A DNA stretch of 34,174 nucleotides from the NCBI GenBank assembly GCA_030653355.1, contig JAURZN010000144.1:1-34174 (forward strand), given 5' to 3'. The notes under the pieces were generated by a model. That model searched no databases. It was not told the origin of the DNA and saw only the letters and a list, made by a program, of their open reading frames with translations. Below, piece by piece: positions 1,196 to 32,721 of the stretch (positions within the stretch are counted from its first letter, which is position 1; each line of letters begins with the position of its first letter). Source of the DNA: Gallionella sp. (GTDB lineage Bacteria > Pseudomonadota > Gammaproteobacteria > Burkholderiales > Gallionellaceae). A program made the position numbers and the translations under genes.

Positions 1196-1212
1196 TGCGC
1201 CCACTCCTCTGA

Positions 1213-8896: not shown

Positions 8897-8987
8897 CGGT
8901 GTCCGGCGGCACCCAAAAAGTGGTCTTGAATGTGAACAAGGCGCTGGCCTGAATTGTTGTGAGCCGACAATCAAGAGGGGCGAATAA

Positions 8988-16409: not shown

Positions 16410-16509
16410 TGTGTCGCGCTGTGAATTGCGAGGGAGCAGGGCTGCGAGTACAACGAGCAGATTTTTTTCTTGCCTGAAAAAATAATTACCGAAAAGGTTG
16501 TGCCGGATT

Positions 16510-18579
16510 ATGAATGTGTTGCTGGTTGAAGATGATATTGACATGAGGCAGCTGCTATGTTCGCTGCTCGAAATGCGCGGGCACACCGTGACGGCGGTGG
16601 TGGACGGTGAGGCAGGCTGGGAGGCTTATCAGAATCGCAAGTATCCCTTGGTTATTCTCGACTGGATTCTGCCCGGCATGAGCGGGCTGGAATTGTGCCG
16701 CATGATACGAAGCAGTCTGCAAGGGGCGCACAGCCTGATATTGATGGTGACCGCGTGCACCCATTCCGGTGATTTGCAACAGGTGCTTGCAGCGGGGGCC
16801 GATGATTATCTGGCAAAACCGTTCGATCCGGACATGTTCAACATCCGCCTGGCGATCGCGGAACACGGCGTTATCAGAATCAGAGAAAAAAGACTGGCTG
16901 AGGCTGAGCTTCGCACGGCCGCAGTGGCTCTGGAGGCACATAAAGGCATCATAATCACGGATGACAAGGCAAATATTATTCGCGTTAACCGGGCTTTTTC
17001 GGAAATAACCGGATACAGTTCCGTTGAAATGTTGGGGGAAAATCCGCGCATCATGCAATCGGGGCTGCATCCGAGGTCTTATTTCGTTGAAATGTGGCAA
17101 GAATTGCTGCACAACGACGTATGGGTGGGGGAAATCTGGGATAAACGCAAGAACGGCGAGATTTACCCGAGCTGGCTGACGATCACCGCCGTCAGGGACG
17201 AGTTGCAGGAAATCACAAACTACGTGGCGATTTTCAGTGATATCACCGCGCGTAAAAAAACGGAGCAGGAAATTCACCATCTGGCATTTTATGATGCGCT
17301 GACTGAGCTGCCCAATCGCCGCCTGTTTCAGGATCGTTTTTATGCCGCGCTGAATGCTTCTGAACGCCACAAGGATTTCGGCGCTGTGCTGTTCATCGAT
17401 ATGGACAAGTTTAAGTCGCTCAATGATACGCTGGGACACGATTATGGCGACTTGCTGCTGATCGAGGTGGGCGTGCGCATCAAATCCTGCATCCGTGAAA
17501 TGGATACTGTGGCAAGATACGGCGGAGACGAATTTGTCGTGCTGATTGAAGGCGTCAGCAAGAATCAGGATGATGCCGCAAACAAGGTCGCGCGGGTTGC
17601 TGAAAAAATTCGTGAATCACTGGCACGCCCTTATCAACTTAAAGAGCATCAGCATCGCAGTAGCCCGAGCATCGGCATCTGCCTGTATCACGGCAATGAT
17701 GCGTCTATGGCGGCTGTCATCGAACAGGCCGATATGGCGATGTACGAAGTTAAAAAATCGGGGCGAAATGCAATATGCTTTTTCGATCCTCTCATGCAGA
17801 GCAATGTGACCGATCACCATGATCTGGTGCGTAATTTACAGCAGTCCATCGAGCTCAATCAGCTGCAACTGCACTACCAGATACAGGTAGACAGCGGCAA
17901 ACACCCGCTGGGTGCAGAAGCCTTTTTGCGCTGGGACCATCCGGTTCATGGGTTGATGCTGCCGGGCAAGTTCATCCCGCTCGCCGAGGAGAGCACACTG
18001 ATACTCGCGATCGACCAGTGGGTACTGAAGACGGCCTGCCGGCAACTGGCCGCATGGAGCCGATGCAATAAAACACGCCATCTGACGCTGACCGTGAATA
18101 TCAGCGCGAAACAATTCGGACAGCCCGATTTCGTAAGCCTTGTTGCAAAGATCGTGCGGGAGCACGGGGTCAGTCCGGACTTGCTGAAATTGGAACTGTC
18201 CGAGCGGGTGTTGCTGGAAAATATGAACCGTTCCATGGACAAGATACGTGCCTTGAAGGAGCTGGGTATCCGATTGTCGATGGATAATTCCGGCACGGTG
18301 TTTTCATCGCTGTCTTATCTGTCGCAGATTTCATCAGACCAGCTCAAGATCAATCAGGATTTCGTTCAGGGGGTGACAGAAGCCGGAAATGACGCGCAGC
18401 TGGTCAGAACCATCGTCGGTCTGGCCAGATCCCTGGATATGGATATCTTTGCCGAAGGGGTGGAAACGGAAGCGCAGCGCGCCTTCCTTCAAACGCAGGA
18501 TTGCCGCACCTATCAGGGCTATCTGTTCGGCAGGCCGGTGGCGATTGAGCAGTTCGATGTAATGCTCGGGGAGTTATAA
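16510..18579 (+). CDS. Response regulator REC–PAS–GGDEF–EAL with degenerate EAL
   Basis: A 689-residue cytoplasmic protein. The receiver (1–120) has VEDD, Asp51 in VILDWILPG and Lys in YLAKPF. A PAS domain (about 140–260) precedes GGDEF with intact GGDEF at 338–342 and an RxxD inhibitory site (REMD). The EAL domain is eroded: EAF at 470–472, LELSER for the usual LELTES, DNSGTVFSS at 592 where DDFGTGYSS is expected, and KIN at 613–615 for KID. With the metal-binding Asp pair and loop 6 lost, I infer a cyclase whose EAL part is regulatory. The ATG at 16510 is preferred to a TTG at 16498 because receiver homology starts there and AAGG lies upstream. Confidence 0.92.
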   Translation: MNVLLVEDDIDMRQLLCSLLEMRGHTVTAVVDGEAGWEAYQNRKYPLVILDWILPGMSGLELCRMIRSSLQGAHSLILMVTACTHSGDLQQVLAAGADDYLAKPFDPDMFNIRLAIAEHGVIRIREKRLAEAELRTAAVALEAHKGIIITDDKANIIRVNRAFSEITGYSSVEMLGENPRIMQSGLHPRSYFVEMWQELLHNDVWVGEIWDKRKNGEIYPSWLTITAVRDELQEITNYVAIFSDITARKKTEQEIHHLAFYDALTELPNRRLFQDRFYAALNASERHKDFGAVLFIDMDKFKSLNDTLGHDYGDLLLIEVGVRIKSCIREMDTVARYGGDEFVVLIEGVSKNQDDAANKVARVAEKIRESLARPYQLKEHQHRSSPSIGICLYHGNDASMAAVIEQADMAMYEVKKSGRNAICFFDPLMQSNVTDHHDLVRNLQQSIELNQLQLHYQIQVDSGKHPLGAEAFLRWDHPVHGLMLPGKFIPLAEESTLILAIDQWVLKTACRQLAAWSRCNKTRHLTLTVNISAKQFGQPDFVSLVAKIVREHGVSPDLLKLELSERVLLENMNRSMDKIRALKELGIRLSMDNSGTVFSSLSYLSQISSDQLKINQDFVQGVTEAGNDAQLVRTIVGLARSLDMDIFAEGVETEAQRAFLQTQDCRTYQGYLFGRPVAIEQFDVMLGEL

Positions 18580-19408: not shown

Positions 19409-22400
19409 ATGATGCAGATCAAAAAAGAAGCTGGACTATGGTTCGGGTTGCATGCCAGCCATCAGCAAGCAATGCGCCGTGCGGGTATCACGGTCGTACT
19501 GCTGACGCTGGCTATATTGCTGGTAAGCGCGCTTCCACCGCTGCCTGAAACGCGTGGCATCGCAGGTTACTTGCCGCTGCACACCTTGCTCGAAACCATC
19601 GCGATCATTATTGCAATGCTGGTATTCGCGGTAGGCTGGCATGCCTATCGCCGGGAATTATCCGGCAACTTGCTGCTGATTGCCTGCGCATTTCTCGGGG
19701 TGGGGATGCTGGATTTCACGCATACGATTTCCTACGCGGGTATGCCTGACTTTGTCACGCCAGGCAGCCCGGAGAAGGCGATAGCCTTCTGGCTGGCGGC
19801 GCGTACGCTGGCAGCGATTACACTGTTTGCGGTGGCTATTCTGCCCTGGCGACCGCTGGGATCCGCATTATTTCGTTATGTATTACTCGCCAGTGTGGTT
19901 GCAGTGGTCGGATGTCTGCACTGGCTGATGTTGTTTCACGCCTATCTGTTGCCACAGACTTTCGTCGACGGACAGGGGCTCACCCGCTTCAAAATCTATT
20001 ATGAATACGCGCTGATCGCGCTGAATCTGGCAACGGTATTTATTCTGTGGGTGCGCATGCGCAAACCACAGCCATTCGATGCGGCGGGATTGTTTGGCGC
20101 AGTCTGCGCGATGGCGTTGAGCGAGTATCTGTTTACGCTCTACGCCGAGGTAAGCGATATTTATAACTTGATGGGGCATCTGTACAAGCTGGTCTCCTAT
20201 CTGTTTCTTTATCGTGCGATCTTCGTCGTAGCCATAGAACGACCCTACCTTCAGCTGCAAGCCGCGCAAAACCAACTGCAAGCTACCATTAAAGCGATTC
20301 CTGATCTGCTGTTTGAGCTCGATCTGGAGGGGCGCTACCATGCGTATCACTCTCCCGGATCAGATTTGCAGCCTGCATTTGCCGACGCCTATATAGGCAA
20401 GACGATGCGCGAAGTGCTGCCGGCCGATGTCGCGCAGATCGGCATGTCAGCCTTGCAGGAGGCCTATGAAACCGGTTTTGCCAGGGGTGAATATCAATTA
20501 GAGTCACCCAAGGGGAAACGCTGGTTCGAGTTTTCAGGTAGTCGTAAATCTGTCGAACCCGGGCAGGAAACGCGTTTTGTCGTGCTGTCACGCGATATTA
20601 CCGAACGCAAGCAGATGGAGTTGGAGCTGGCTGAATCGCACACTCTGCTCAGAGCGGTAGTTGACGCAGCGCCGGAACGCATTTTCTGGAAAAACAATGA
20701 GCTGCGTTATATGGGCTGCAATCCCGCGTTTGCCGCCGATGCCGGTGCGCTGTCCCCTGATGAAGTTGTCGGCAAGGACGATTACCAGTTGGCCTGGAAA
20801 GCGCAGGCCGAAATTTATCGTGCCGATGACCGGCAGGTCATGGATACGGGTATCCCCAAACTTTTTTATGACGAGCCTACGACCTCATCTGACGGAAAAA
20901 TTACCTGGTTGCGCACTTCCAAGGTGCCGCTGCGTAATAAAGCCAACGAAACGATAGGCGTGCTGGGCCTTTATCAGGATATTACCGAGCAAAAACTGGA
21001 AAAAATCGTTCTGCAACAGAGCGAATACCACCTCAGGCAGGCGCAGCAGATCGCCCATATCGGTAGCTGGAGTTTAGACCTTGCCGGCAGATTGTTGTGG
21101 TCGGATGAGATGTATCAAATTTATGGCGTTGATCCCGGAACATTCACGCCCAATGCTGATAATTTCCTCAAGTTGATACACGCCGATGACCAGTCTGCCA
21201 TGCAGGAGTGGATCGCAGCCTGTGCATCAGGCCGGAAGCCGGGCGCTCTGGAGTTCCGTGTCTGGCGGGAGGGCACGATCCACTATATCGTCGGGCAGGG
21301 TGAGCTGATGCTGGATGCCGATGGAAAACCGGACTATATGGCGGGAACCGCGCAGGATATTACTGAGCGCAAACGAACCGAGGAGTCTCTGTTCACGCTT
21401 TCCTTTGCCATGGAACAAAGTCCCAATTCCATCGTGATCACCGCGCTTGATGGACGCATCGAGTATGTCAATTCAACCTTCAGCAGAGTAACCGGATACA
21501 GTCTGGATGAGGTGTTCGGCAAAAATCCGCGCATCCAGCAGTCAGGCAAGACATCCAGAGAAACGTATGTTGACATGTGGTCGCATCTGACGGGTGGTGA
21601 ACCCTGGCAGGGCGAACTGGTTAACTGCCGCAAGGATGGCAGCGAATATATCGAAGCCGTACAGATATCGCCGGTGAGGCAGGTTAGCGGCAGGGTTACC
21701 AATTATCTGGCGGTGAAGCAGGATATCACCGAGAAAAAGAAGGCTGAAGAACGCATTGAAAGGTTGGCACATTTCGATCAGCTTACGGGCCTGCCTAATC
21801 GCAGCATGTTGAATGCGCGTTTCAAATTTGCGCTCAGCCTGGCGCAACGCAGTGGCGAGCAACTGGCGTTGATGTTCCTCGATCTGGACCGGTTCAAAAA
21901 TATCAACGACACGCTGGGACATGCCATCGGCGATCAATTATTGATGGAGGTGGCAAGGCGGCTGAAGGCAACCTTGCGCGATGAAGACACGGTGTCGCGT
22001 CTGGGTGGTGATGAATTTATCATTGTCTTGCCCGGCATCGATGCGAACGGTGCGGCGCATGTGGCGAGCAAGCTGCTCGAAGCCGTATCGCTATCCTGGC
22101 AAGTCGAGCAGCATGAGTTGATTGCGACACCCTCGATAGGCATTGCGATCTATCCGGACGATGGCAAGGATTTCGAGACCTTGTCCAAGCATGCGGATGC
22201 AGCCATGTACCGCGTCAAGCAGGAAGGGCGTAACGATTTCCGTTTTTTTACGCCGGAAATGCAGGCCAGTTCCGTGCGCAGCATGCAACTGGCGAATGCG
22301 TTGCGTTACGCATTGTCGCGCAACGAATTGTTTTTACACTACCAGCCGCAACTAGCGATACAGGATGGACGTGTCGTCGGCGCGGAAGCCTTGCTGCGCT

Positions 22401-23044
22401 GGCGGCATCCTGAATTGGGCATGATTTCTCCCGCTGAATTTATTCCCATCGCCGAAGATGGCGGGCAGATCATCCAGATAGGCGAGTGGGTGTTGCGCAC
22501 GGCGGTCAGACAGTTGAAGGACTGGATGGACAGCGGGTTACCGCCGATGGTGATGGCCGTTAATTTGTCTGCGGTGCAGTTTCATCAGGCCAATATGATA
22601 GAACGGGTGAACGGCATACTCGATGAGGTGGGGCTGCCGCACGAATATCTGGAATTGGAACTGACCGAAGCCGTAGCGATGAAGAACCCTCGGGCTGCGA
22701 TCGCGGTCATGGACAAGTTGTATGAAAGCGGCATCCGTATGTCCATCGATGATTTTGGCACCGGCTATTCTTCATTGAGCTATTTGAAAAAGTTCAAGGT
22801 ATCCAAGTTGAAGATAGATCAATCCTTCGTGCGTGATATTACCGATGATCCGGAAGACAAGGCGATTGTTACCGCCATCATCAACATGTCCAGCAGCCTG
22901 GGCATCCGCACGATAGCCGAGGGCGTGGAGACATCCGGGCAATTGGCTTTTCTGCGTTTACAAGGGTGCGATGAGGTGCAGGGCTATTATTTCAGCAAGC
23001 CACTGCTGGCGGAGCAATTCGAGGCGTTTGCAAGAAATAACTGA
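19409..23044 (+). CDS. MASE3–PAS(x4)–GGDEF–EAL c-di-GMP enzyme
   Basis: A 1211-residue membrane signalling protein. The N-terminal 270 residues form a MASE3 sensor with about seven hydrophobic segments and the hallmark GMLDFTHTISYAGMPDF. Four PAS/PAC units follow (about 285–400, 410–530, 540–660 and 665–790), several ending in DITE(R/Q)K. GGDEF is intact at 866–870 with an RxxD inhibitory site (RDED). EAL is intact at 993–995, with LELTEA, DDFGTGYSS at 1114 and LKIDQSFV. Both catalytic domains should be functional, so net output depends on PAS or membrane input. The start could be either of two adjacent ATGs (19409 or 19412). It is the last of the c-di-GMP cluster and faces the TonB receptor gene tail to tail. 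Confidence 0.94.
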   Translation: MMQIKKEAGLWFGLHASHQQAMRRAGITVVLLTLAILLVSALPPLPETRGIAGYLPLHTLLETIAIIIAMLVFAVGWHAYRRELSGNLLLIACAFLGVGMLDFTHTISYAGMPDFVTPGSPEKAIAFWLAARTLAAITLFAVAILPWRPLGSALFRYVLLASVVAVVGCLHWLMLFHAYLLPQTFVDGQGLTRFKIYYEYALIALNLATVFILWVRMRKPQPFDAAGLFGAVCAMALSEYLFTLYAEVSDIYNLMGHLYKLVSYLFLYRAIFVVAIERPYLQLQAAQNQLQATIKAIPDLLFELDLEGRYHAYHSPGSDLQPAFADAYIGKTMREVLPADVAQIGMSALQEAYETGFARGEYQLESPKGKRWFEFSGSRKSVEPGQETRFVVLSRDITERKQMELELAESHTLLRAVVDAAPERIFWKNNELRYMGCNPAFAADAGALSPDEVVGKDDYQLAWKAQAEIYRADDRQVMDTGIPKLFYDEPTTSSDGKITWLRTSKVPLRNKANETIGVLGLYQDITEQKLEKIVLQQSEYHLRQAQQIAHIGSWSLDLAGRLLWSDEMYQIYGVDPGTFTPNADNFLKLIHADDQSAMQEWIAACASGRKPGALEFRVWREGTIHYIVGQGELMLDADGKPDYMAGTAQDITERKRTEESLFTLSFAMEQSPNSIVITALDGRIEYVNSTFSRVTGYSLDEVFGKNPRIQQSGKTSRETYVDMWSHLTGGEPWQGELVNCRKDGSEYIEAVQISPVRQVSGRVTNYLAVKQDITEKKKAEERIERLAHFDQLTGLPNRSMLNARFKFALSLAQRSGEQLALMFLDLDRFKNINDTLGHAIGDQLLMEVARRLKATLRDEDTVSRLGGDEFIIVLPGIDANGAAHVASKLLEAVSLSWQVEQHELIATPSIGIAIYPDDGKDFETLSKHADAAMYRVKQEGRNDFRFFTPEMQASSVRSMQLANALRYALSRNELFLHYQPQLAIQDGRVVGAEALLRWRHPELGMISPAEFIPIAEDGGQIIQIGEWVLRTAVRQLKDWMDSGLPPMVMAVNLSAVQFHQANMIERVNGILDEVGLPHEYLELELTEAVAMKNPRAAIAVMDKLYESGIRMSIDDFGTGYSSLSYLKKFKVSKLKIDQSFVRDITDDPEDKAIVTAIINMSSSLGIRTIAEGVETSGQLAFLRLQGCDEVQGYYFSKPLLAEQFEAFARNN

Positions 23045-23122
23045 GGCAACGTGAGCAATTCATCCCAAATAATCCATTAGGCCGGTATGACGCAGTTTTT
23101 TCTAATGAACTATCTGGGTTTA

Positions 23123-25189
23123 TCAAAGATTATGCTGAAGCTGGAGGTAGAAGGCACGTCCGGGCAGCGGCAGATCGGAATACATGCCTGCCGATTTAAA
23201 GGTTGGTTCTCTGGCATCCGTATTGAGCAGATTCATCACTTTTGCGCTCACCTCCCAACCGTTGACGAGTTTTTCGCGCCGTAAGGTTAAATCTACCGTG
23301 GTGTAATCCGGAATCAGCGGGCGGGTGTCGCCCGGCTCACGCATGCGTCCTGCTACATGATTTATTGTGACACCGGACTGCCATAGCGGCATGAAACGCC
23401 AGTCCGCCCGGGCGAACAGCCGTTGATGTGGCGCCAGCCCCGCATCCTGTCCGGTGGCCGCATCCTTCGAGCGCTGCACTGAAACATTGCCCGTCAGGCG
23501 CAGGTTGCGATCCGCCTCGAAAGTTGCCTCGAATTCAAAGCCGCGGCCGTTTTTTCCGCCACTGTTCAGATACGATGCGCCTACGGGCAAAATAATGTTG
23601 CGCATGTGGTACTGGAAAAAATTCAGACTGGTTTTCAGCTTGTTCACCGGCTGCCATAAAAACCCCAGTTCATCCGTGGTGATGGTCTCAGGTTTGAGAC
23701 GGGAATTGCCGATGGTCACAGGGTTGTTGATGTTGTACAGTTCAGTGAAGGAAGGCGCCCGGAATGCCGTGCCATGCATGGCTTTGATCACGATATTGTA
23801 GGAGGCATCCCACACCAGCGCGATGCGCGGATTGGTGGTGTCGCCGAAGTCGGAATAATGGTCATGCCGCACGCCCGCCGTCAGCGTCCAGTCCCTCGCG
23901 AAACTATATTCGTCTTGGGCGAAAGCAAAGGTGACGCTGCGTTTGTGCGGCAGCAAGAACACCAGCGCCGGATTGCCGCTTGCATCGATCACGCCGGGCA
24001 GCGGCGCAAAATTCGCATCGAAATTTTTGAATTCCTGCGTCTGGTATAAATCGTCCACACGATGTCCTGTGCCTGCGCGTAGGAGATGTTGTTCAAAACC
24101 GGTATAGACGGCGGTCACGCTGGCATGGGTGTGCTGCTCGGCGTGTCCGGGATTGCCGATCATGCCATTGGGGAACGCACCGCCAAATGCACCCGCTGGA
24201 AACAAGGTGTAGGCAGGATTGGCGGGATTACTCTTGATGTCGTAATAACCCGCTACTGCGGACACGTCCCAGTTGGGCGACCAGCCGGTTTTTTCATAGC
24301 TCGCATCCAGATACAGTCTGGACTCGGGAATGCGCGCGTTGGGATCCAGCGCCGCCGCGAGCCCTGCGCCACTGCCCAGTTCCCGTTGTTGATAACCCGA
24401 CCTCAAACGCCATGCCCCATAGGACAGGTCGGCGCGTGCATCGATCGACTTGTTTTGTGCATTGACAGGTCCGGGTGCGAGCGACGCTTTTGTGCCGAAA
24501 ATTGCATCCCAGGCCGTTTGGGCATCTTTCTGAATGATACCCTTCTGGCCATTGGTATTGCTCGCACCGAGATAGAACGCGGCGTCCAGTTCCCACAGTT
24601 TTCCGCCATGCTGTATCCACGCCTCGCGTGTGTTGAAGCTGCCGATACGTGCGCCGTATTCGCTGCCCTTGATGTCCGCCGCCGTCCTGGTAATAACGTT
24701 AATTACTCCGGAGAAGGCATCTGCGCCATACAGCGCCGATCCCGGCCCGCGTATCACTTCGATGCGCGCTACATTCTCAAGCGGCATGCCGCCCCACATC
24801 TGGCTGCGATCACCGGCAAACACATTGGTGATCGGCATGCCATTAACCAGCATCAACACTTCCGAATTGCGGGTGGTATGAATGCCACGAAAGCTGTAAA
24901 TCGGACCCGAGGCGATATTGTTCATGGAAACATGCAGTCCGGGAACCGACTCCAGAACCTGTTCCAGTCCGGTTGCCCCCATGGCCTTGATATCCTGTGC
25001 GGTGATAACAGTTGCACTGGAAGGTGCGCGGGTAATGGCTTGCCGGCCACCGGTGGCGATGCTGACGGTGGAATTATCTCCGTAGATCAGTGCTAGGTCT
25101 TCCTCTTCGGAAGGCAGTGCGGTGGCGGAACCTGTCCAGGCTAAAGACAGCATTACGCAAATTGTCAGGCGACGAATGCTCGGTTGCAT
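23123..25189 (-). CDS. TonB-dependent outer-membrane receptor
   Basis: A 688-residue receptor with signal peptide (cleavage about residue 25, ATALPSEEE). The motif EEEDLALIYGDNSTVSIATGG includes a likely TonB box, followed by a plug domain (about 50–170: PSSATVITAQDIKAMG, VPGLHVSMN, RGPGSALYGADAFSGVINVITR) and a 22-strand barrel. The end is FYLQLQHNL with a terminal hydrophobic pattern suited to BAM insertion. GGGGGAG precedes the ATG. The ligand is not readable: siderophores, metals and vitamins are all possible. It follows the TPP/citrate-synthase-like operon on the same strand after a 114-base gap with its own candidate leader hairpin, so separate transcription is likely. Confidence 0.94.
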   Translation of the reverse strand: MQPSIRRLTICVMLSLAWTGSATALPSEEEDLALIYGDNSTVSIATGGRQAITRAPSSATVITAQDIKAMGATGLEQVLESVPGLHVSMNNIASGPIYSFRGIHTTRNSEVLMLVNGMPITNVFAGDRSQMWGGMPLENVARIEVIRGPGSALYGADAFSGVINVITRTAADIKGSEYGARIGSFNTREAWIQHGGKLWELDAAFYLGASNTNGQKGIIQKDAQTAWDAIFGTKASLAPGPVNAQNKSIDARADLSYGAWRLRSGYQQRELGSGAGLAAALDPNARIPESRLYLDASYEKTGWSPNWDVSAVAGYYDIKSNPANPAYTLFPAGAFGGAFPNGMIGNPGHAEQHTHASVTAVYTGFEQHLLRAGTGHRVDDLYQTQEFKNFDANFAPLPGVIDASGNPALVFLLPHKRSVTFAFAQDEYSFARDWTLTAGVRHDHYSDFGDTTNPRIALVWDASYNIVIKAMHGTAFRAPSFTELYNINNPVTIGNSRLKPETITTDELGFLWQPVNKLKTSLNFFQYHMRNIILPVGASYLNSGGKNGRGFEFEATFEADRNLRLTGNVSVQRSKDAATGQDAGLAPHQRLFARADWRFMPLWQSGVTINHVAGRMREPGDTRPLIPDYTTVDLTLRREKLVNGWEVSAKVMNLLNTDAREPTFKSAGMYSDLPLPGRAFYLQLQHNL

Positions 25190-25234
25190 AGTGGTACTCC
25201 CCCGGTGATATCAAACAACATCTTGTTATTGTCT

Positions 25235-25250
25235 GCCGATGAAAATCGGC
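25235..25250 (-). promoter_or_regulatory. Leader hairpin upstream of TonB receptor gene
   Basis: A perfect 6-base stem GCCGAT/ATCGGC with a 4-base loop lies 46 bases before the receptor start on its strand. A possible -10 (TATACT near 25281) is upstream. It could stabilise the leader or bind a regulator; the sequence gives no specific function. Confidence 0.35.
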
Positions 25251-25303
25251 GCCTCAGTATGTCTGGTTTCTGGAAAAGTATACAACACTGGCAGGCGGGT
25301 TAC

Positions 25304-26116
25304 TCAAGGTATTATATTGCGCCAAGTCCGTTGCCCTATGCCTTCGTAGGCAATTTCACCGCATGGTGTGGGGAAAAGCGTTCCTTCAGGTTTTTCCGCC
25401 GCTTCCAGCCAGCATGGCGGCATTCCTGCGAGGAACATCGGAACGAGAAAAATATGAAACTCCCTCGGTGTCAGCCCTAAATCGGCCGCCAGGGAGGCTA
25501 TCATGCCAGCATAATTCATGCGTAAATTGGGTTTGCCCATCTCCAGCAGGATTATTTCGACCTCGAACGCCATCTTGAAATGTTGTCCTTGATCCAGCCC
25601 CTGTTCCCTGGCAAGACTGGCGAGCCACGGCAGGCGTTCGTCGCAGGAATCGATAGGGCGGCCATAGCCGTAAATGTACTTTGACTTTAGTTCTTCGTCC
25701 ATGAAGTCGCGCAGTGTCTGGCCAAAAGCGACCGCTTTTCCGGCGCGCAGGAAAAAGTCGATGGCGCGCAGGCCGGGGCCGCCGCCATAGATGCGTGCCT
25801 CAGAAACCGCCATTGCGGCGGCCAAGCCCAATGCCGGTGTACTTCGACTGCTTCCGGCGAGGGCGGCGACGCGGTTGTTCCAGATGCGCGCATCGGGATA
25901 GCTGGTGATTACCCAGATACCATGAAGCAGTTTGACTTGTTCGGGGGTATAACGGCGCCCGGTGATGCCGAACAGATACAGTTCCAGCCAGTCGGCATCG
26001 TGCAAGCCCTGATGCAGGTCGAGGCCGCGAAACACCGCGCGCGTACCCGGCCAGCACGCGCCGACTCTGGTGCGCAGGACGCCGATATGGGCCGCCAATA
26101 ATTCGGGGCCGTTCAT
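25304..26116 (-). CDS. Citrate synthase-fold protein, catalytic residues replaced (subunit B)
   Basis: A 270-residue protein with the citrate synthase/citryl-CoA lyase architecture: LHGIWVITSYPDARIWNNRVAALAGS, then a small-domain segment, then LAADLGLTPREF and a Trp-containing tail. Positions normally catalytic have changed by alignment by eye. HGG is YGG (Y110), GFGHP is GYGRP (R153) and the NVDG Asp is Ala in MNYAG (A203). Its ATG overlaps the TGA of the next gene upstream (ATGA), so it is co-translated with the sister protein at 26113. A heteromer with that protein, or a regulatory or altered-chemistry enzyme, is the natural reading. No symbol can be given. A longer frame upstream of 26116 exists but overlaps the sister gene and is not homologous. 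Confidence 0.78.
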   Translation of the reverse strand: MNGPELLAAHIGVLRTRVGACWPGTRAVFRGLDLHQGLHDADWLELYLFGITGRRYTPEQVKLLHGIWVITSYPDARIWNNRVAALAGSSRSTPALGLAAAMAVSEARIYGGGPGLRAIDFFLRAGKAVAFGQTLRDFMDEELKSKYIYGYGRPIDSCDERLPWLASLAREQGLDQGQHFKMAFEVEIILLEMGKPNLRMNYAGMIASLAADLGLTPREFHIFLVPMFLAGMPPCWLEAAEKPEGTLFPTPCGEIAYEGIGQRTWRNIIP

Positions 26117-26913
26117 GGCAACTCCCTGGCAGCGGGATCGTCTTCCAGTTCCACCGGGTAAAAAGGGAATTGTTTGTAGCCGTAGCCCTCCTGTTCCAGG
26201 GCGTGTGCCGCCGCGCCGGGCAGGCGCAGCAGCAGATAGAGCATTTCCCCTTCGTTCGGATTGAACCCCAAATCCGCGAATGCGGCTGCGGCTACACCGC
26301 TGACATCCAGAGGCAGTTCGATAATCTTTTCCAGTTGCCAACGTTGCGAGGTCAGCCAGGACAGGCGCGGTGTAGCGCCGATACGAGCCAGCGTTTCAAG
26401 CAACTGGCACACGCTGGTGGCAGTGGATACACCGTGGGGGTCGAACCCCGGAGGATGCTCGCGCCGGGGCCAGGTATCCACGAAATCGCTCCGCGTATCA
26501 AGGCGGCTGTAGGTATTCCAGGCATCCAGATCGGTGCCGCAAGTGTCCCAGGCGATCATGGCGTCGTATACGTCGCGAGCACCGCGAAAGCGTCCCGCGC
26601 CGACGGAGAGTGCGGCGATCAAGGAGGCTGCGGCACTGGAGCCGCCCACGCTGCCGCACATGGCGGCATGCACTGACGCATCGCGCGGGCCGGGATTGGC
26701 CAGCGCGACCGCCAAGGCTTCCAGCATGTCGAGTTCGGTAGCGGCGGGCAATTCGTCGCGGAACAGCAGTGCGAGCATTTCGACCCAGCGGGCATTGCCT
26801 ACCATCTGACCGTAAACGTCGTACCCCCGGCAGAAGGCTGCACGGGTGGCGAAGGGGTTGTCGGGTTCGGGTTCTTCGCGCCAGATGCGCGTGTGGATTT
26901 TGTCGGTGCTCAT
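26113..26913 (-). CDS. Citryl-CoA lyase/citrate synthase-like protein, catalytic residues replaced (subunit A)
   Basis: A 266-residue protein similar in layout to citryl-CoA lyase-type members of the citrate synthase superfamily: VHAAMCGSVGGSSAAASLIAALSVGAGRFRGARD (compare the AVAAGLLGVGSRFVGT block of citryl-CoA lyases) and LPLDVSGVAAAAFADLGF where relatives read LPINVDGAIGAVLSDLGF. The catalytic Asp is Ser205, and the usual GHP histidine region reads PGFDPHG. It overlaps its upstream neighbour (ATGA at 26910–26913) and its downstream neighbour (26113–26116), a strongly coupled arrangement. I infer a partner of the second citrate synthase-like protein and of the TPP enzyme. Catalysis, if any, is not ordinary citrate synthesis. 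Confidence 0.78.
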   Translation of the reverse strand: MSTDKIHTRIWREEPEPDNPFATRAAFCRGYDVYGQMVGNARWVEMLALLFRDELPAATELDMLEALAVALANPGPRDASVHAAMCGSVGGSSAAASLIAALSVGAGRFRGARDVYDAMIAWDTCGTDLDAWNTYSRLDTRSDFVDTWPRREHPPGFDPHGVSTATSVCQLLETLARIGATPRLSWLTSQRWQLEKIIELPLDVSGVAAAAFADLGFNPNEGEMLYLLLRLPGAAAHALEQEGYGYKQFPFYPVELEDDPAARELP

Positions 26914-28736
26914 TTCAGGGTTCCCAAGGTTTTCATGCGCAGCACCATCGGCGGCACTTCATCAGGGTCGATGCGCACGTCGAGCAGCGTTGGCCCTTTG
27001 CGCCGCAGCATCGCGTCGAAGTCGAGATCGTCTAACTCTTGCGGCGAGTGGATGACGTAACCGGGTATGCCCATGGATTCGGCAAGCTTGCGGTAATCGA
27101 CCTGTGGCAATTCGTAACCGATGGGTTCGGCATCCGCCAGCCGCTGGCCGTGTTTGACCATTCCCAGCGCACCGTCGTTGAGCACGACGAAAACGACGGA
27201 AAGGTTTTCCATGGCGGCCACGGTGATTTCCTGACCGCTCATCAGAAAAGCACCGTCGCCGGTAATGCAGACGACCGGACAGGCTGAATTGCCCCGTGCG
27301 ATGCCGACCGAAGCACCGATGGCCCATCCCATCGGGCAAAAGTCCATCATCACGCGTAACCAGTTGGCCGTGCCCGAGCGTTGCTCCGGCATTTGCCCAT
27401 CGACATATAGGGGTGGCCGTTCAATTCGCCGATTCAGCGGTTGGAGATAATGCACCGTCCACACCATGCTGTTGCCGGAGTCGGCGAGGAAGCGAGTGTT
27501 GGGCGGGCAGCGCTCGGATAATGCTTTCATCAGGCGTTGCGGCTTGATCGGGGTGGCGTCGGAATCGTAGCTTTCGGGCGACTGGAGGGTGACTCCGGCC
27601 AGGCCGTTCGGGCGTCTGATGCACTCGGCGATGCGTGGGGAAATGGCTTTTTGCAGTTCGATCAGGCGTTCACATGTCGAACGAATGTGTCCGCGCACAT
27701 GGAGCATGGCCATCGGTGAACGCATTAGGTTGTATTCTGAATTGTCGATGTGCACCAGGCGTTTGTTGAGCAGGGAGTCGCACCAGCCGCCGCTGACAAA
27801 TTCACTGAAGCCAGTGCCGAATGCGAGCACGATGTCCGGTGTGCTGGAGAGCAGGGCGGCTGCGCTGTCGTGGCCGCCGAAGCCGAACACGCCACAATAG
27901 GCCGGATGGCGAGGATTGATGTAGCCTTTTGCATCCGGGGTGGTAATGAACCTTGCGCCGATCAGTTCGACCAGCGCCATGATCGTTTCGATTGCATCAA
28001 TACAGGAGGCGCCGATCACGAACACGGTGCGTGCTGACCGCCGCAGCTCGTCGTTGAGGCGCTGTATCGCGCGCTCATCGATCAGAATCGGCTCCTGTTC
28101 GAACAACGCCGCCAGATTGTAGGTGGGGGTGGTGCACTCCCTTGCGCTGCGCAGAATGTCCAGCGGAATAGCCAGGTGCGCCGGGCCGCCGGGGGCTTGG
28201 TGCGCTGTCATCAGTGCGTTGGCCAGCTTGCGTTCGAACTGATCGGGGTGTGAAATCATGGCGTTGTAACGCGTGCAGTGACTGAACATGCCAAAGGCGT
28301 TGACACCGGTGCTGGAAGATTCCTGTAACGCGCCTCTGCCGAATGAAGGTAGCGGCGGAAGACCGCTGATCGCCAGCAGCGGGACATTGTTGTCGTGCGC
28401 GCATGCCACGCCAGTAATTAAGTTGGTTGAACCGGGGCCGGAAGTGGCGCAACACACCCCCAGACGCCCGGTCTCACGGGCATAGCCATCAGCCATGAAT
28501 GCAGCTCCGGCTTCGTGCCGCGCCACGATTGGTCGAAGACCACCGCGCCGCTGGCTGCGCGCCATCGCGTTAAACAACGGTTCGATGGCGCCGCCCGGCA
28601 CACCGAATACGTATTCGACGCCTATCTGTTCCAGATAGGCAACCAGCAGATCGGCCACGGTCAGAGCAGCAACGATTGCCGGGCGGGTCGTTATTATGCT
28701 GGTCGTGCTGTTGGCAGGCAAAACATAAGCACCCAT
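26910..28736 (-). CDS. Thiamine-diphosphate enzyme, acetolactate synthase superfamily
   Basis: A 608-residue ThDP enzyme. The N-terminal pyrimidine domain has GVPGG, the catalytic Glu in VARHEAGAAFMADGYARETG, and TSGPGSTNLITG. The middle domain is present. The C-terminal domain has the ThDP/Mg motif GDGAFLMSGQE… VVLND. Such enzymes join or cleave 2-oxo acids, as in acetolactate synthase, sulfoacetaldehyde acetyltransferase and oxalyl-CoA decarboxylase; the substrate cannot be told here. No small regulatory subunit is nearby. I start at the ATG at 28736, preceded by AGAAGGA 10 bases away, rather than at 28778, which has no ribosome site. It leads the operon with the two citrate synthase-like genes, joined by ATGA overlap. 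Confidence 0.88.
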   Translation of the reverse strand: MGAYVLPANSTTSIITTRPAIVAALTVADLLVAYLEQIGVEYVFGVPGGAIEPLFNAMARSQRRGGLRPIVARHEAGAAFMADGYARETGRLGVCCATSGPGSTNLITGVACAHDNNVPLLAISGLPPLPSFGRGALQESSSTGVNAFGMFSHCTRYNAMISHPDQFERKLANALMTAHQAPGGPAHLAIPLDILRSARECTTPTYNLAALFEQEPILIDERAIQRLNDELRRSARTVFVIGASCIDAIETIMALVELIGARFITTPDAKGYINPRHPAYCGVFGFGGHDSAAALLSSTPDIVLAFGTGFSEFVSGGWCDSLLNKRLVHIDNSEYNLMRSPMAMLHVRGHIRSTCERLIELQKAISPRIAECIRRPNGLAGVTLQSPESYDSDATPIKPQRLMKALSERCPPNTRFLADSGNSMVWTVHYLQPLNRRIERPPLYVDGQMPEQRSGTANWLRVMMDFCPMGWAIGASVGIARGNSACPVVCITGDGAFLMSGQEITVAAMENLSVVFVVLNDGALGMVKHGQRLADAEPIGYELPQVDYRKLAESMGIPGYVIHSPQELDDLDFDAMLRRKGPTLLDVRIDPDEVPPMVLRMKTLGTLK

Positions 28737-28941
28737 AAATGAAATATCCTTCTGGTGGGAACCACACTCTATAATCATTATTTGCCGGTGAAGATTGGCA
28801 TTGTCGGTCTATTGTCAATTACGCTTGCAGGTCGTTATGCTACCGCAATTTTTCGCTAAATCGTACTTTTAGCCCTCAAACCGAGCAAAGGATTTGTAAG
28901 CCTGATACTATAACCCCGTCATCAGCATAGAATACCCCCGT

Positions 28942-28952
28942 CGGTTAAACCG
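28942..28952. promoter_or_regulatory. Palindrome CGGTTAAACCG in divergent spacer
   Basis: The spacer between the TPP operon and the substrate-binding protein gene (28737–29055) has no gene. It carries a perfect palindrome CGGTT-A-AACCG and overlapping arms CCGGTA/TACCGG (28950–28983). A site for a divergent regulator is possible. No convincing promoter boxes or riboswitch could be assigned. Confidence 0.3.
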
Positions 28953-29055
28953 GTAAACAGATTGGTCGCCGATGGTGTACCGGATAGACGAAATTTTGCT
29001 AAGGTTTACTTATTTTCAGGTCCGCAAGTTATGGTAACGAAATAAATAACTAACT

Positions 29056-30261
29056 ATGGCTGTAATCACGTCCCCGCCCAGTATTATGTTTCCTGTCCAT
29101 ATGCGGGCGGGCGCGGTGTTACTGGCGATTTCATTGTTGATGACCGCGCCGGCATGGGCGACATTGAAAAATCGTAATCCCTTGTCGGGCGAAACATCGC
29201 AGCAGAATTACGTTCGCGTGACTCGCGCCGTTGCGCCCTCCTTGCTGTTGCCTGCTTCGACTTCGCTGGAGACAGACTATGCCGAGGTGATGCGCGCGAT
29301 TGAAGCGGTTCCGGATGTAATTGTCGTGCCCATTCTGGTTGCCGGTCCCGTAACCGCTGCCGCGACTCGCAACCTTGGCAACAAATTCGCGCAGGCCGAC
29401 GGCAATATCGCAGTCATCTATCCCGATATCGGCGAACCTTATCGCAGCGTGTTCACGCAAATTGTCGGCGGAATAGAGGACAGGGCCGGGAGACGCGTGA
29501 CCAATATTGCGGTGGGGGCGAACGTGGATACCGGCGAGTTGAATAATTCGCTGCGTCGCCAGGATACACGGGTGGTGATTGCGCTGGGCAGACAGGGCGT
29601 AAAGGTCGCTACCGCGCTGGATAGCAATATCCGCGTCGTGGTGGGTGCTGTGCTGACAGCACCGGAAAACGAAGTGCGCGATCATCCGGTAAATAGCCTG
29701 TCGCCGGACCCTGCGCTGCTGTTCTCGCGCCTGAAGAGCTTGATGCCCAAGGCGCGGCGGGTGTTCACTGTGTACGATCCGCGCCAGAATGCATGGATGA
29801 TGCGTCTGGCGAAAGAGGCTGCACGCGCTCAGGGGCTGGAATTTACGGCCTATGAAGCACAGGACTTGCGCAGTGCGACGCTGGCTTATCAGAAAATTCT
29901 CGCCAGCGCCGACAGCAGTCAGGATGCCTTATGGTTGCCGCATGATTCCACCACGGTGGAAGAGGGCTCGGTGCTCCCCTTGGTGCTTGAGGGATCATGG
30001 GCGCGTAACCTGGCCGTGTTTTCCAGCAATTTCGGTCATGTCAGGCGCGGCGTGCTGTTCTCGCTGTATCCGAACAATGTCGAACTGGGTCACCATCTTG
30101 CCGGTTCCGCATTGGCTTTCATGGCGTCCAGCGATAATGAGGTATCCGGCATGTTCCCGTTGCGTGAAGTGTTGATGGCTATCAACTTACGTACAGCCCA
30201 ACACCTTGGAATCAATACCAGCCGCCCGCAAAGTTATGATATGACGTTCCCCGCACAATAA
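29056..30261 (+). CDS. Periplasmic ABC-type substrate-binding protein
   Basis: A 401-residue protein with an N-terminal hydrophobic signal segment (RAGAVLLAISLLMTAPAWA, residues 17–35) and a two-lobe fold recognisable as the ABC_sub_bind type (PF04392-like): NIAVIYPDIGEPYRSVFTQIVGGIE, VIALGRQGVKVATAL, VFTVYDPRQNAWMMRLAKEAARAQG, VFSSNFGHVRRGVLFSLYPNN. No ABC permease or ATPase genes follow. Instead the next gene, 12 bases on, is a membrane c-di-GMP sensor. This suggests the binding protein passes ligand occupancy to that sensor in the periplasm. The ribosome site is weak and the start may be at internal Met 11 or 16. Confidence 0.85.
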   Translation: MAVITSPPSIMFPVHMRAGAVLLAISLLMTAPAWATLKNRNPLSGETSQQNYVRVTRAVAPSLLLPASTSLETDYAEVMRAIEAVPDVIVVPILVAGPVTAAATRNLGNKFAQADGNIAVIYPDIGEPYRSVFTQIVGGIEDRAGRRVTNIAVGANVDTGELNNSLRRQDTRVVIALGRQGVKVATALDSNIRVVVGAVLTAPENEVRDHPVNSLSPDPALLFSRLKSLMPKARRVFTVYDPRQNAWMMRLAKEAARAQGLEFTAYEAQDLRSATLAYQKILASADSSQDALWLPHDSTTVEEGSVLPLVLEGSWARNLAVFSSNFGHVRRGVLFSLYPNNVELGHHLAGSALAFMASSDNEVSGMFPLREVLMAINLRTAQHLGINTSRPQSYDMTFPAQ

Positions 30262-30273
30262 GGCGCGCCATTT

Positions 30274-32721
30274 ATGAAGAAAATTTACACGGCCTTTTTC
30301 CACGACCTCACCTTCTCGCGCCAGATCGGGATCACGGTGACGCTCGGTATTCTCGCTCTGGCGTTGTTTTCCTCCGTTGCGGGATCATGGCAAGTCAACA
30401 AGCGGATGCGCGACAGCCTGATTGAGCAGGGGCAGCAGATCACAGAGAATCTGGCGCGTCAAAGCGCTCTGGCGCTGATTTATGCTTCCGCCGACAATGC
30501 TACCGAGGCGGTGAATATCGCCATGGCTTTTCCGGGAATCATCGGCGTGGAAATTCGCGATGTCAACGGGCGTGTGTTGCTGGCACGCGGCAATGCTAAC
30601 TTTGCCGAATTCCTCGAACAATCCGGCCAGACCAATGGGTTGCAAGCCTCCGCCATACTCAGCACTGAAAGCTCAGAGTCGTGGCGCTTTGCCGCACCGG
30701 TCTATTCCCAGCCTTCTGCGGGTTCACCCTTCGGTGAGGTGACTACACCCGAATTCCTCGGCAATGTTTCGGTGGTGATGAGCAAGGCGGATCTGTCCAG
30801 AAGAACCGCCGATATTTTTATCTCCAATCTATTTACGTCGTTTTTTTTTGCGTTGATTTTTCTGTTGTTGATCCGTTATCTGACCCGTGGGATGGCGCGC
30901 CCGCTCGAACATTTGTCGGCCAGTATGGAACGTGCCCGGATGGGCGAATTGTTGGTGCGCGCCGTGCCCAGCGGACCGAAGGATATTGCCAGGCTGGCGC
31001 ACGCGTTCAATAGCATGATGTCGGTGCGGGAAGAACATGAAGCTGCCTTGCGCATCGCAGCCATCGCCTTCGAGATCGACGAGGGCATGCTGGTAACGGA
31101 TAAGCATTCTGTGATTATCCGGGTCAATCAGGCATTCACCCGGATGACTGGTTACAGTGCCGACGAGGCCATCGGCAAGACTCCGGCTCTGCTTCTTCAG
31201 TCTGGTCGTCATAACGCCGCCTTCTATCAGGCTATGTGGGAAAGTGTAAATCACAACCATCACTGGCAAGGGGAAATCTGGAACAAGCGCAAGAATGGGG
31301 AAATCTACCCCGAGTGGCTTAATATTTCCGCTGTTCTCGGCACAGACGGAAAAGTTGTGAATTATATTGGTTCGTTTATCGACATCACCGAACGTAAACA
31401 GGCCGAAAATGATATACACAAACTTGCTTATTATGACCCGCTTAGCCTGCTGCCCAACCGTCGTTATCTGCTTAATCGTCTCCGGCAGGCCATTTCGATC
31501 AGCGTACGCAACCAGACTGGCGGCGCACTCATGTTTATTGATCTCGATAATTTCAAGACACTGAACGACACCAAGGGACATGATATTGGTGATTTGCTGC
31601 TGATTGAGGTCGCTAAACGCCTGCAAGAGTGCATTCGCGATGGGGATACCGTGTCGCGTTTTGGCGGAGATGAATTTGTGTTGTTGCTGGAGGGCTTGAG
31701 CGCTGAGAAGGCGCATGCTGCCGTACAGGCGCGAGGGGTGGGTGAGAAGATACTCGCGGCACTCAGCCAACCCTATTTTCTTGAAGGATGTGAGTTGTAT
31801 AGTTCATCGAGTATGGGGATCACCTTGTTCATCGATCATGCGGAAAAACTCGATGAGTTGCTAAAACAGGCAGATACGGCCATGTACGAAGCAAAAAAAT
31901 CCGGCCGCAATGCCTTGCGCTTCTTTGACCCGGTGATGCAGGCTGATCTGGAAAGCCGCGCCCAGCTTGAAGCCGGTTTGCGTGATGCCCTGCGCAATCA
32001 GGAATTCCGGCTTTATTACCAGATGCAGGTCAATCACGAGGGGGAGATTGTCGGGGCAGAAGTCCTGCTGCGCTGGTTCTCTCCCGGTGCGGGTCTGGTC
32101 TCGCCGCTGCAATTTATTCCGCTGGCGGAGGAGACGGGACTCATACTGCCAATCGGACATTGGGTGCTGGAAAGCGCCTGTCAACAACTAAAGGCCTGGG
32201 AGCGTGAGCCGCATACCCGCGATTTGCTGCTCGCCGTCAACGTCAGCGGACGACAGTTCCGCCAGACGGATTTCGTCGCACAAGTCATCGAAGTCATCCG
32301 TCAGACCGGCATCAATCCGGAGCGATTAAAGCTTGAGCTGACCGAAAGTATCGTGCTCGATAATGTTGACGACACCATCGCCAAGATGCAGGCATTAAAG
32401 CAAGCTGGCGTGCGCTTCTCCATGGACGACTTCGGCACGGGGTATTCATCGCTGTCCTATCTGACCCGGTTGCCACTCGATCAATTGAAAATTGATCAAT
32501 CTTTTGTGCGCAACATTGGCACAAGACCCACCGATGCGGTGATCGTTCAAACCATCATCGGCATGGCCAATAACCTGGGCATGGAAGTGATAGCCGAAGG
32601 CGTGGAAACACAAGCGCAATGTGATTTCATCATGGCTGCCGGATGCATGCGTTATCAGGGTTATTTGTTCGGCAAACCGGTGCCGATTGAGCAATTTGAG
32701 GCGCAGCTGAAGCCGGGTTAA
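30274..32721 (+). CDS. Membrane sensor HAMP–PAS–GGDEF–EAL c-di-GMP enzyme
   Basis: An 815-residue protein. TM1 (about 18–38), a periplasmic domain of about 140 residues, TM2 (about 182–202) and HAMP (203–250) form a classical sensor. A PAS domain (about 265–385) follows. GGDEF is intact at 464–468 with an RxxD inhibitory site (RDGD). The EAL domain has EVL at 596–598, LELTES, DDFGTGYSS at 718 and LKIDQSFV, so both activities are plausible. It follows the substrate-binding protein gene with 12 bases between and is presumably co-transcribed; the binding protein probably docks on the periplasmic domain. It resembles the 8988 and 19409 proteins in its PAS–GGDEF–EAL core. Confidence 0.94.
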   Translation: MKKIYTAFFHDLTFSRQIGITVTLGILALALFSSVAGSWQVNKRMRDSLIEQGQQITENLARQSALALIYASADNATEAVNIAMAFPGIIGVEIRDVNGRVLLARGNANFAEFLEQSGQTNGLQASAILSTESSESWRFAAPVYSQPSAGSPFGEVTTPEFLGNVSVVMSKADLSRRTADIFISNLFTSFFFALIFLLLIRYLTRGMARPLEHLSASMERARMGELLVRAVPSGPKDIARLAHAFNSMMSVREEHEAALRIAAIAFEIDEGMLVTDKHSVIIRVNQAFTRMTGYSADEAIGKTPALLLQSGRHNAAFYQAMWESVNHNHHWQGEIWNKRKNGEIYPEWLNISAVLGTDGKVVNYIGSFIDITERKQAENDIHKLAYYDPLSLLPNRRYLLNRLRQAISISVRNQTGGALMFIDLDNFKTLNDTKGHDIGDLLLIEVAKRLQECIRDGDTVSRFGGDEFVLLLEGLSAEKAHAAVQARGVGEKILAALSQPYFLEGCELYSSSSMGITLFIDHAEKLDELLKQADTAMYEAKKSGRNALRFFDPVMQADLESRAQLEAGLRDALRNQEFRLYYQMQVNHEGEIVGAEVLLRWFSPGAGLVSPLQFIPLAEETGLILPIGHWVLESACQQLKAWEREPHTRDLLLAVNVSGRQFRQTDFVAQVIEVIRQTGINPERLKLELTESIVLDNVDDTIAKMQALKQAGVRFSMDDFGTGYSSLSYLTRLPLDQLKIDQSFVRNIGTRPTDAVIVQTIIGMANNLGMEVIAEGVETQAQCDFIMAAGCMRYQGYLFGKPVPIEQFEAQLKPG

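Follow-up and report, generated by a model that had tools for sequence, protein, structure and literature searches.

The three-gene unit and its conservation

A stretch of 34,174 nucleotides from Gallionella sp. (assembly GCA_030653355.1, contig JAURZN010000144.1, positions 1 to 34,174; referred to below as the window) was analysed with respect to three adjacent genes, which encode a thiamine diphosphate (ThDP)-dependent carboligase and two different proteins related to citryl-CoA lyase. These genes, the trio, were named TPP, CSL1 and CSL2; SBP denotes a PF04392 binding protein that is encoded, together with a TonB-dependent receptor and a membrane sensor, beside the trio. Codes beginning with L and G denote loci and genomes, respectively. 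The trio lies as follows:

26910-28736, minus strand: TPP, predicted ThDP-dependent carboligase of the acetolactate-synthase type, 608 aa from the ATG used
26113-26913, minus strand: CSL1, predicted citryl-CoA-lyase-fold protein, 266 aa, classical catalytic residues lost
25304-26116, minus strand: CSL2, second predicted citryl-CoA-lyase-fold protein, 270 aa, classical catalytic residues lost

The longest open reading frame (ORF) of TPP starts at 28778 (622 aa). Direct reading of the sequence confirmed the ATGA overlap at both joints, which had been described in an earlier reading made from the letters of the window (the sequence-only reading). The stoichiometric products deduced there are supported in part: CSL1 and CSL2 overlap by 4 bp in 28 of the 31 measured loci, but TPP and CSL1 do so in only 15. 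In six of the 31 loci TPP and CSL1 are separated by a gap of 763-855 bp, which contains an SDR gene (∼254 aa). Chance ORFs or a gene-calling artefact were rejected, the trio proteins being 24-83 % identical to those of the window in 13 tabulated loci.

The sequence-only reading depended on the three genes being kept together in other genomes, and they were found to be conserved together among 80 CSL1 loci and in samples of the family, class and phylum. CSL2 is adjacent to CSL1 on the same strand in 77 of the 80 loci (a count that includes the near-duplicates L003 and L004); in 72 loci TPP is found at a distance of no more than 9 kb, and 66 have it on the same strand at no more than 3.5 kb. Some absences are due to contig ends (for example L010, L042, L052 and L058), and TPP itself is found at a contig end in G011 and G027. 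When a genome collection was scanned with CSL1, 13 named loci were obtained, of which eight are titled Aquabacterium; Sulfuricella, Leptothrix, Massilia, Comamonadaceae and Burkholderiales account for one each. Named loci and the other samples may share species. CSL1 was detected in 21 of 100 genomes of the window's own family and in 43 of 369 genomes of its class, two of which (G289 and G455) carry ordinary citryl-CoA lyases; with these removed, the enzymes occur in about one in nine of the sampled species of the class (41/369). The two lyase loci (L129 in G455, L130 in G289) were left out of the residue counts and of the counts over 80 loci, and their genomes were kept in the Fisher tests given below. 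A phylum-wide sample of 398 genomes was screened with CSL2 and gave 10 positives, of which eight belong to other classes. Within a single genus of another class (L159-L162, four of the eight other-class loci) the order is receptor, CSL1, CSL2, TPP, SBP, so that the linkage is kept and the order changed.

The genes also co-occur genome by genome. SBP was found in 30, TPP in 25 and CSL1 in 21 of the 100 family genomes, and all 25 TPP genomes contain SBP. Among the 369 class genomes (CSL1 in 43, TPP in 45, SBP in 44), CSL1 and TPP coincide in 37 genomes against 5.2 expected (Fisher p 1e-36), and TPP and SBP in 38 against 5.4 expected (p 3e-38); over all tests p ranged from 1e-12 to 3e-38, values that are overstated because genomes were treated as independent and kinship was uncorrected. 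Linkage under changed gene order is independent of these tests.

Two loci were observed in which CSL2 is incomplete. L091 (8678-11456) retains TPP, the SDR gene and CSL1, with only a short piece of CSL2 between CSL1 and an IS66 transposase; in L138 (11124-11312, genome G074) only a CSL2 remnant lies between TPP and the receptor, in what looks like a decaying locus.

The ThDP enzyme and the CSL pair

All three ThDP-enzyme domains of TPP (N, M and C) were matched in Pfam (E 1e-38, 4e-21 and 4e-28). A family alignment was restricted to members with at least 85 % coverage and at least 400 bits (n=56); the catalytic glutamate E75 is present in 56/56 of these, and D494, N520 and G530 in 55/56 each. 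By its sequence, TPP is thus an intact ThDP carboligase with a complete ThDP/Mg2+ site. It shares the full carboligase architecture, the catalytic glutamate and the Mg2+ motif with the acetolactate synthase large subunit and with BbmA and CsmA. The closest sequences in the PDB were BbmA (8x3x, E 1e-80) and CsmA (8x3z), ahead of acetohydroxyacid synthase (AHAS) I; no open-licence paper was found on BbmA or CsmA as ThDP enzymes. A role as the acetolactate synthase of branched-chain amino-acid synthesis was thought unlikely in view of the curated score and the different neighbours: TPP reaches 273.6 bits against TIGR00118, whose cut-off is 538, the other acetolactate synthase models listed were likewise under their cut-offs, and the partners of TPP, in contrast to those of acetolactate synthase, are CSL proteins. 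No ACT-type regulatory subunit was seen among the nine neighbour clusters present in at least seven of 74 loci (one of them without a Pfam match), the rest of the genome not having been searched.

The column of Gly530 was inspected as a possible acceptor-site marker, since it is presumably the one occupied by the specificity residue Trp464 of AHAS II. Glycine is found there in 55 of the 56 TPP sequences and, as Gly484, in BbmA, a feature the two share; the aligned AHAS I has glutamine, and the family can therefore not be defined by this residue. Given this glutamine in AHAS I against the tryptophan that we take to be present in AHAS II, a roomy acceptor site in TPP is put forward as a guess. 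Two genomes carry a second TPP of the same subfamily close to the trio (L011:14134-15912 and L125:5578-7488).

The relationship of the CSL proteins to citrate synthase is remote. CSL2 reaches 28.9 bits against Pfam Citrate_synt (PF00285, cut-off 27) and CSL1 16.5 bits, under the cut-off. In NCBIfam and in the PDB, both proteins matched citryl-CoA lyase or citrate synthase best, with scores far under the curated NCBIfam cut-offs: 57.2 bits against 261 for CSL1 (citryl-CoA lyase, PRK06224 models) and 36.6 against 193 for CSL2. A profile search returned the citryl-CoA lyase 6hxp as first match for CSL1 (E 3e-12) and CSL2 (E 2e-7), and Foldseek gave the same first match for the AlphaFold models of both, which have a mean pLDDT of 64 and are safe for the fold class only. 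Profile and model together assign both proteins to the citrate-synthase fold; with ∼270 aa they also resemble 6hxp in several glycine and helix motifs. They differ from it in being two tandem paralogues and in the residues of the active site.

For a comparison of these residues, members with a profile coverage of 85 % or more (72 CSL1 and 67 CSL2, drawn from 74 loci) were aligned with two genuine citryl-CoA lyases that the same search had returned. In citrate synthase numbering we take H238 to bind oxaloacetate and H274, H320 and D375 to be catalytic (acetyl-CoA enolate). In this sequence alignment of remote relatives, the equivalents of H238, H320 and D375 are present in 0/72 CSL1 and 0/67 CSL2; histidine at the equivalent of H274 remains in 14/72 CSL1 (lost in 58) and in none of the 67 CSL2. 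The genuine lyases of L129 and L130, unlike CSL1 and CSL2, keep the classical catalytic residues. In CSL2, arginine replaces H320 in 67/67 and the DPR arginine is retained in 67/67. The further invariant positions of CSL2 (window numbering, each 67/67) are R77, W79, N81, R153, D159, E160, R161, N201 and R263, a strict polar set that suggests a working ligand pocket. Invariant positions of CSL1 include E13, G75, G156, F157, H237 and E240 (72/72 each).

Identity as ordinary citrate synthase or citryl-CoA lyase was rejected on the lost catalytic residues. The sequence-only reading had considered transfer of an acyl unit to or from a CoA- or citrate-like substrate; by the usual chemistry this is not supported, both CSL families having lost the residues that presumably bind oxaloacetate and form the acetyl-CoA enolate. 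A different reaction in a re-made pocket is possible. The sole citrate synthase found in the window's own genome lies elsewhere (G000:C109). The two genuine lyase loci represent a different system: in L129 (7701-9796) the lyase adjoins a CaiB-type CoA-transferase gene, and in L130 (7907-9909) it is accompanied by a homologue of that gene.

A tree was calculated from 54 rows (24 of the 72 CSL1, 24 of the 67 CSL2 and six lyases). CSL1, CSL2 and the lyases each form a single clade in 100 % of the bootstrap trees; long branches meet, as the tool warns, and the tree is used here for the clades and not for the branching order among the three groups. As judged from residues and tree, CSL1 and CSL2 are two separate families and neither is an ordinary citrate synthase or citryl-CoA lyase. 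A search of plasmid proteins with CSL1 gave eight distant matches (24.9-27.1 % identity), two of which are annotated as citryl-CoA lyase, with no gene listed for the other six; four of the eight, three of them unannotated, served as lyase rows in the tree.

In this tree CSL1 and CSL2 both divide into the same two groups of loci, A with 14 and B with 10; support for the 14-row branch of CSL2 is only 93/87. The distance matrices of CSL1 and CSL2 correlate with r 0.94, and with that of TPP at r 0.48 and 0.57, values that are confounded by species relatedness and serve for comparison only. In G049 and G078 (L058 and L059), TPP is 92 % and 84 % like its nearest relative and stands beside clade B CSL proteins that are only 30-31 % (CSL1) and 24 % (CSL2) like those of the window, so that the pair looks to have been exchanged as a unit beside an ordinary TPP. 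The correlated distances and the joint exchange point to one inherited piece, and the two proteins are therefore probably subunits of a heteromer.

Receptor, binding protein and sensor beside the trio

The sequence-only reading was confined to 25304-28736 and missed the genes that flank this interval:

23123-25189, minus strand: TonB-dependent outer-membrane receptor, 688 aa, downstream of the trio; Pfam Plug and barrel
28737-29055: intergenic region between the divergent TPP and SBP genes, 319 bp
29056-30261, plus strand: SBP, PF04392 ABC_sub_bind type, 401 aa, divergent from TPP; Pfam
30274-32721, plus strand: membrane sensor HAMP-PAS-GGDEF-EAL, 815 aa, directly 3′ of SBP; Pfam

The receptor remained under the cut-off of every NCBIfam subtype among the matches listed (best 25 of 31). 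SBP is thought to be periplasmic, its N-terminus resembling a signal peptide by eye, and the sensor is predicted to act on cyclic diguanosine monophosphate (c-di-GMP). The intergenic region is possibly a shared control region; in a promoter and terminator scan of 22900-30400, promoter-like matches were no more frequent than in shuffled sequences. Four GGDEF-EAL proteins are encoded in the 34 kb of the window (8988-11501, 16498-18579, 19409-23044 and 30274-32721), two of them with MASE3 sensor domains, which makes the window a c-di-GMP hot spot.

Within 9 kb of the 80 CSL1 loci, a TonB-dependent receptor was found in 66, SBP in 55 and a protein scoring at least 80 bits against the window's sensor in 53, a level that any GGDEF-EAL protein can reach. 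SBP adjoins the sensor in many loci. Clustering of the neighbours of 74 loci gave nine clusters represented in at least seven: TPP/CSL (74), receptor (63), sensor (56), SBP (50), SDR (14), chemoreceptor (MCP, 8), CheR (7), an ABC-F-like ATPase without a membrane domain match (7) and a cluster without a Pfam match (7). No importer is among these nine; annotation covers them out of 29 clusters with at least three loci, the other 20 not having been annotated. The MCP and CheR genes (L108:1852-3840 and L104:17512-18840, with homologues in L092, L096, L097, L100 and L109) suggest that a chemosensory array may belong to the module in some families.

For 13 loci, the signalling genes around the module were submitted to a Pfam scan. 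Eight of these loci (the window, L095, L100, L107, L118, L116, L119 and L009) have a GGDEF protein, either by itself or behind a kinase. In L095, L107, L100 and L118 a kinase is fused to, or accompanied by, a receiver-GGDEF-EAL protein, and SBP is present in each. The CSL pair of L116 stands beside a YfiR/HmsC-like protein, which precedes a CHASE8-HAMP-PAS-GGDEF-EAL sensor; a homologue of this YfiR/HmsC-like gene was assigned to L121 by clustering. Other loci carry other signalling proteins: hybrid kinases in L159, L113 and L114, a Ser/Thr-kinase-histidine-kinase with a LuxR-type regulator in L165, and a plain kinase in L173, a TPP locus without CSL genes. In L173 a methyltransferase gene (8506-9303) lies between TPP and the receptor.

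In another class (L163-L166) the trio is found near genes for a giant Ser/Thr-kinase-GAF-histidine-kinase, a LuxR-type regulator, MaoC-SDR and FkbH-like proteins; L166 has an AMP-ligase gene and L163 a methyltransferase gene. Pfam was run on L165, and the FkbH-like and MaoC-SDR homologues of L163 and L164 were read by eye.

A possible make-and-sense module

We tentatively read the trio as the synthesis part of a self-contained make-and-sense module, a proposal to which we give somewhat less than an even chance. TPP, the only clearly competent catalyst of the three, would join an acyl unit derived from a 2-oxo acid to an acceptor that is likely to be roomy. The two CSL proteins, probably forming a heteromer, would bind or convert the acceptor or the product in their re-made citrate-synthase pocket, and in some lineages the SDR may further reduce the product. 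Once released, the small molecule would be collected by the TonB-dependent receptor and would bind to the PF04392 protein in the periplasm; the membrane sensor encoded next to SBP would then read it, with c-di-GMP turnover as the output here and in several other lineages. Such a module would act like a quorum- or self-sensing circuit. Synthesis is favoured over breakdown because of the FkbH-like, MaoC-SDR, AMP-ligase and methyltransferase genes near the trio in L163-L166, and reading over feeding because no widely shared inner-membrane importer was found. The genes of the trio, the receptor and SBP are linked and co-inherited; the synthase role and the reading of the product by the sensor we infer. 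Five genomes of the family sample (G003, G016, G029, G060 and G066) have receptor, SBP and sensor and neither TPP nor CSL1, which is consistent with a pattern of producers and listeners.

The broader claim is less likely: that the module represents a new class of self-made bacterial signal, in which a ThDP carboligase and a CSL heteromer would make the compound, a TonB receptor would collect it and a PF04392 protein would read it, often into c-di-GMP, with listeners keeping the receiving half only.

Several observations weigh against the proposed module. At the genome level, SBP was not found at the threshold in seven of the 45 class genomes with TPP, and six class genomes have SBP without TPP at the threshold, although two of these (G133 and G243) hold pieces of TPP by local profile. 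Five family genomes have TPP without CSL1 (G074 among them, with its CSL2 remnant), G045 has CSL1 without TPP, and in G035 and G015 TPP stands directly beside a receptor gene and no CSL genes were found. TPP lies within 9 kb in only seven of the 13 clade B loci. Around the trio, no receptor or SBP was found nearby in L110, L113, L114 and L163-L166. As to the output, the GGDEF proteins of L116, L119 and L009 have no SBP nearby, no GGDEF domain was found among the scanned proteins of five of the 13 loci (L113, L114, L159, L173 and L165), and GGDEF genes are common in such genomes, the window included. A TonB receptor for a small carboligase product would be unusual. The divergence of the CSL proteins is weakly correlated with that of the receptor (r 0.45-0.54), and the pair is therefore not an obvious determinant of signal specificity.

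A rather unlikely alternative for part of the system, and one compatible with the make-and-sense reading, is that the CSL pair has no catalytic role and instead shapes or regulates TPP in the manner of acetolactate synthase small subunits; regulation of the ThDP enzyme by the pair had also been considered in the sequence-only reading. The loss of the classical residues in both families would fit such a role, as would the overlap of TPP and CSL1 in 15 of the 31 loci, the apparent exchange of the pair while TPP stays and the genomes that retain TPP without it; the strictly conserved polar set of CSL2, which suggests a working pocket, and the clade B loci in which TPP is not close by argue the other way.

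It is unlikely that the trio makes a metallophore or another scavenging ligand, which would be released as a chelator and recaptured by the TonB receptor, with SBP and the sensor only monitoring its return. TonB receptors mostly serve the uptake of metal chelates, heme or B12, and metallophore synthesis genes usually lie beside the receptor. The receptor is present in 66 of the 80 loci, and its weak NCBIfam matches, among those listed, include heme, B12 and siderophore subtypes. Against this, the nine neighbour clusters include neither an inner-membrane importer nor a non-ribosomal peptide (NRPS) or NRPS-independent siderophore (NIS) synthetase (clusters in three to five loci were not annotated), SBP accompanies a signalling protein rather than an ABC permease in most loci that have it, and five family genomes keep receptor, SBP and sensor without the enzymes. 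Less probable again is a catabolic module, in which an external compound would enter by the receptor, be reported by SBP and the sensor and be cleaved by TPP and the CSL pair: ThDP enzymes and citryl-CoA lyases are capable of C-C lyase action and sensing-only loci would detect the same food compound, but neither an inner-membrane transporter nor a catabolic enzyme is among the widely shared neighbours, both CSL families lack the classical lyase residues and the accessory genes of L163-L166 look biosynthetic.

The make-and-sense module was compared with known systems. LuxP-LuxQ and NspS-MbaA are periplasmic-binding-protein sensors, and the likeness consists in a binding-protein gene next to a membrane kinase or GGDEF-EAL sensor; here, in contrast, the binding protein is of the PF04392 type, a TonB receptor is part of the locus and a ThDP/CSL set is linked. 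In YfiR-YfiN (HmsC-HmsD), a system of c-di-GMP control, a periplasmic regulator is encoded beside a CHASE8-HAMP-GGDEF sensor, as is the YfiR/HmsC-like protein beside the CSL locus in L116, whereas the window and the 55 of 80 loci with SBP have a PF04392 protein with the enzyme trio and usually the receptor. The sensing half, binding protein and c-di-GMP sensor, thus appears to be of a known kind, and no counterpart was found for the enzymes and their association with a TonB receptor. We know of no other combination of a PF04392 protein, a TonB receptor and a ThDP/CSL set, and no description of the module was found in the open-licence literature searched. The sequence-only reading knew of no pathway with a ThDP carboligase and two different citrate-synthase-fold proteins, and for this conserved three-gene unit no matching pathway was found. 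If the proposed module is correct, it would be a widespread cell-signalling circuit organised around a small molecule and would employ the citrate-synthase fold in a way not seen before, and it would offer a candidate ligand source for orphan PF04392 binding proteins beside GGDEF-EAL sensors. Even under the alternatives, the CSL proteins would add to a textbook enzyme family a new branch that comes as a pair and lacks the known catalytic residues.

The genome to which the window belongs is 89 % complete. Two matches to the RuBisCO large subunit over the cut-off suggest that the host is an autotroph. A methylotrophic context was not supported, no methanol dehydrogenase over the cut-off being found in this 89 % complete genome. 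A phage-type integrase is encoded at the edge of the window (74-1204).

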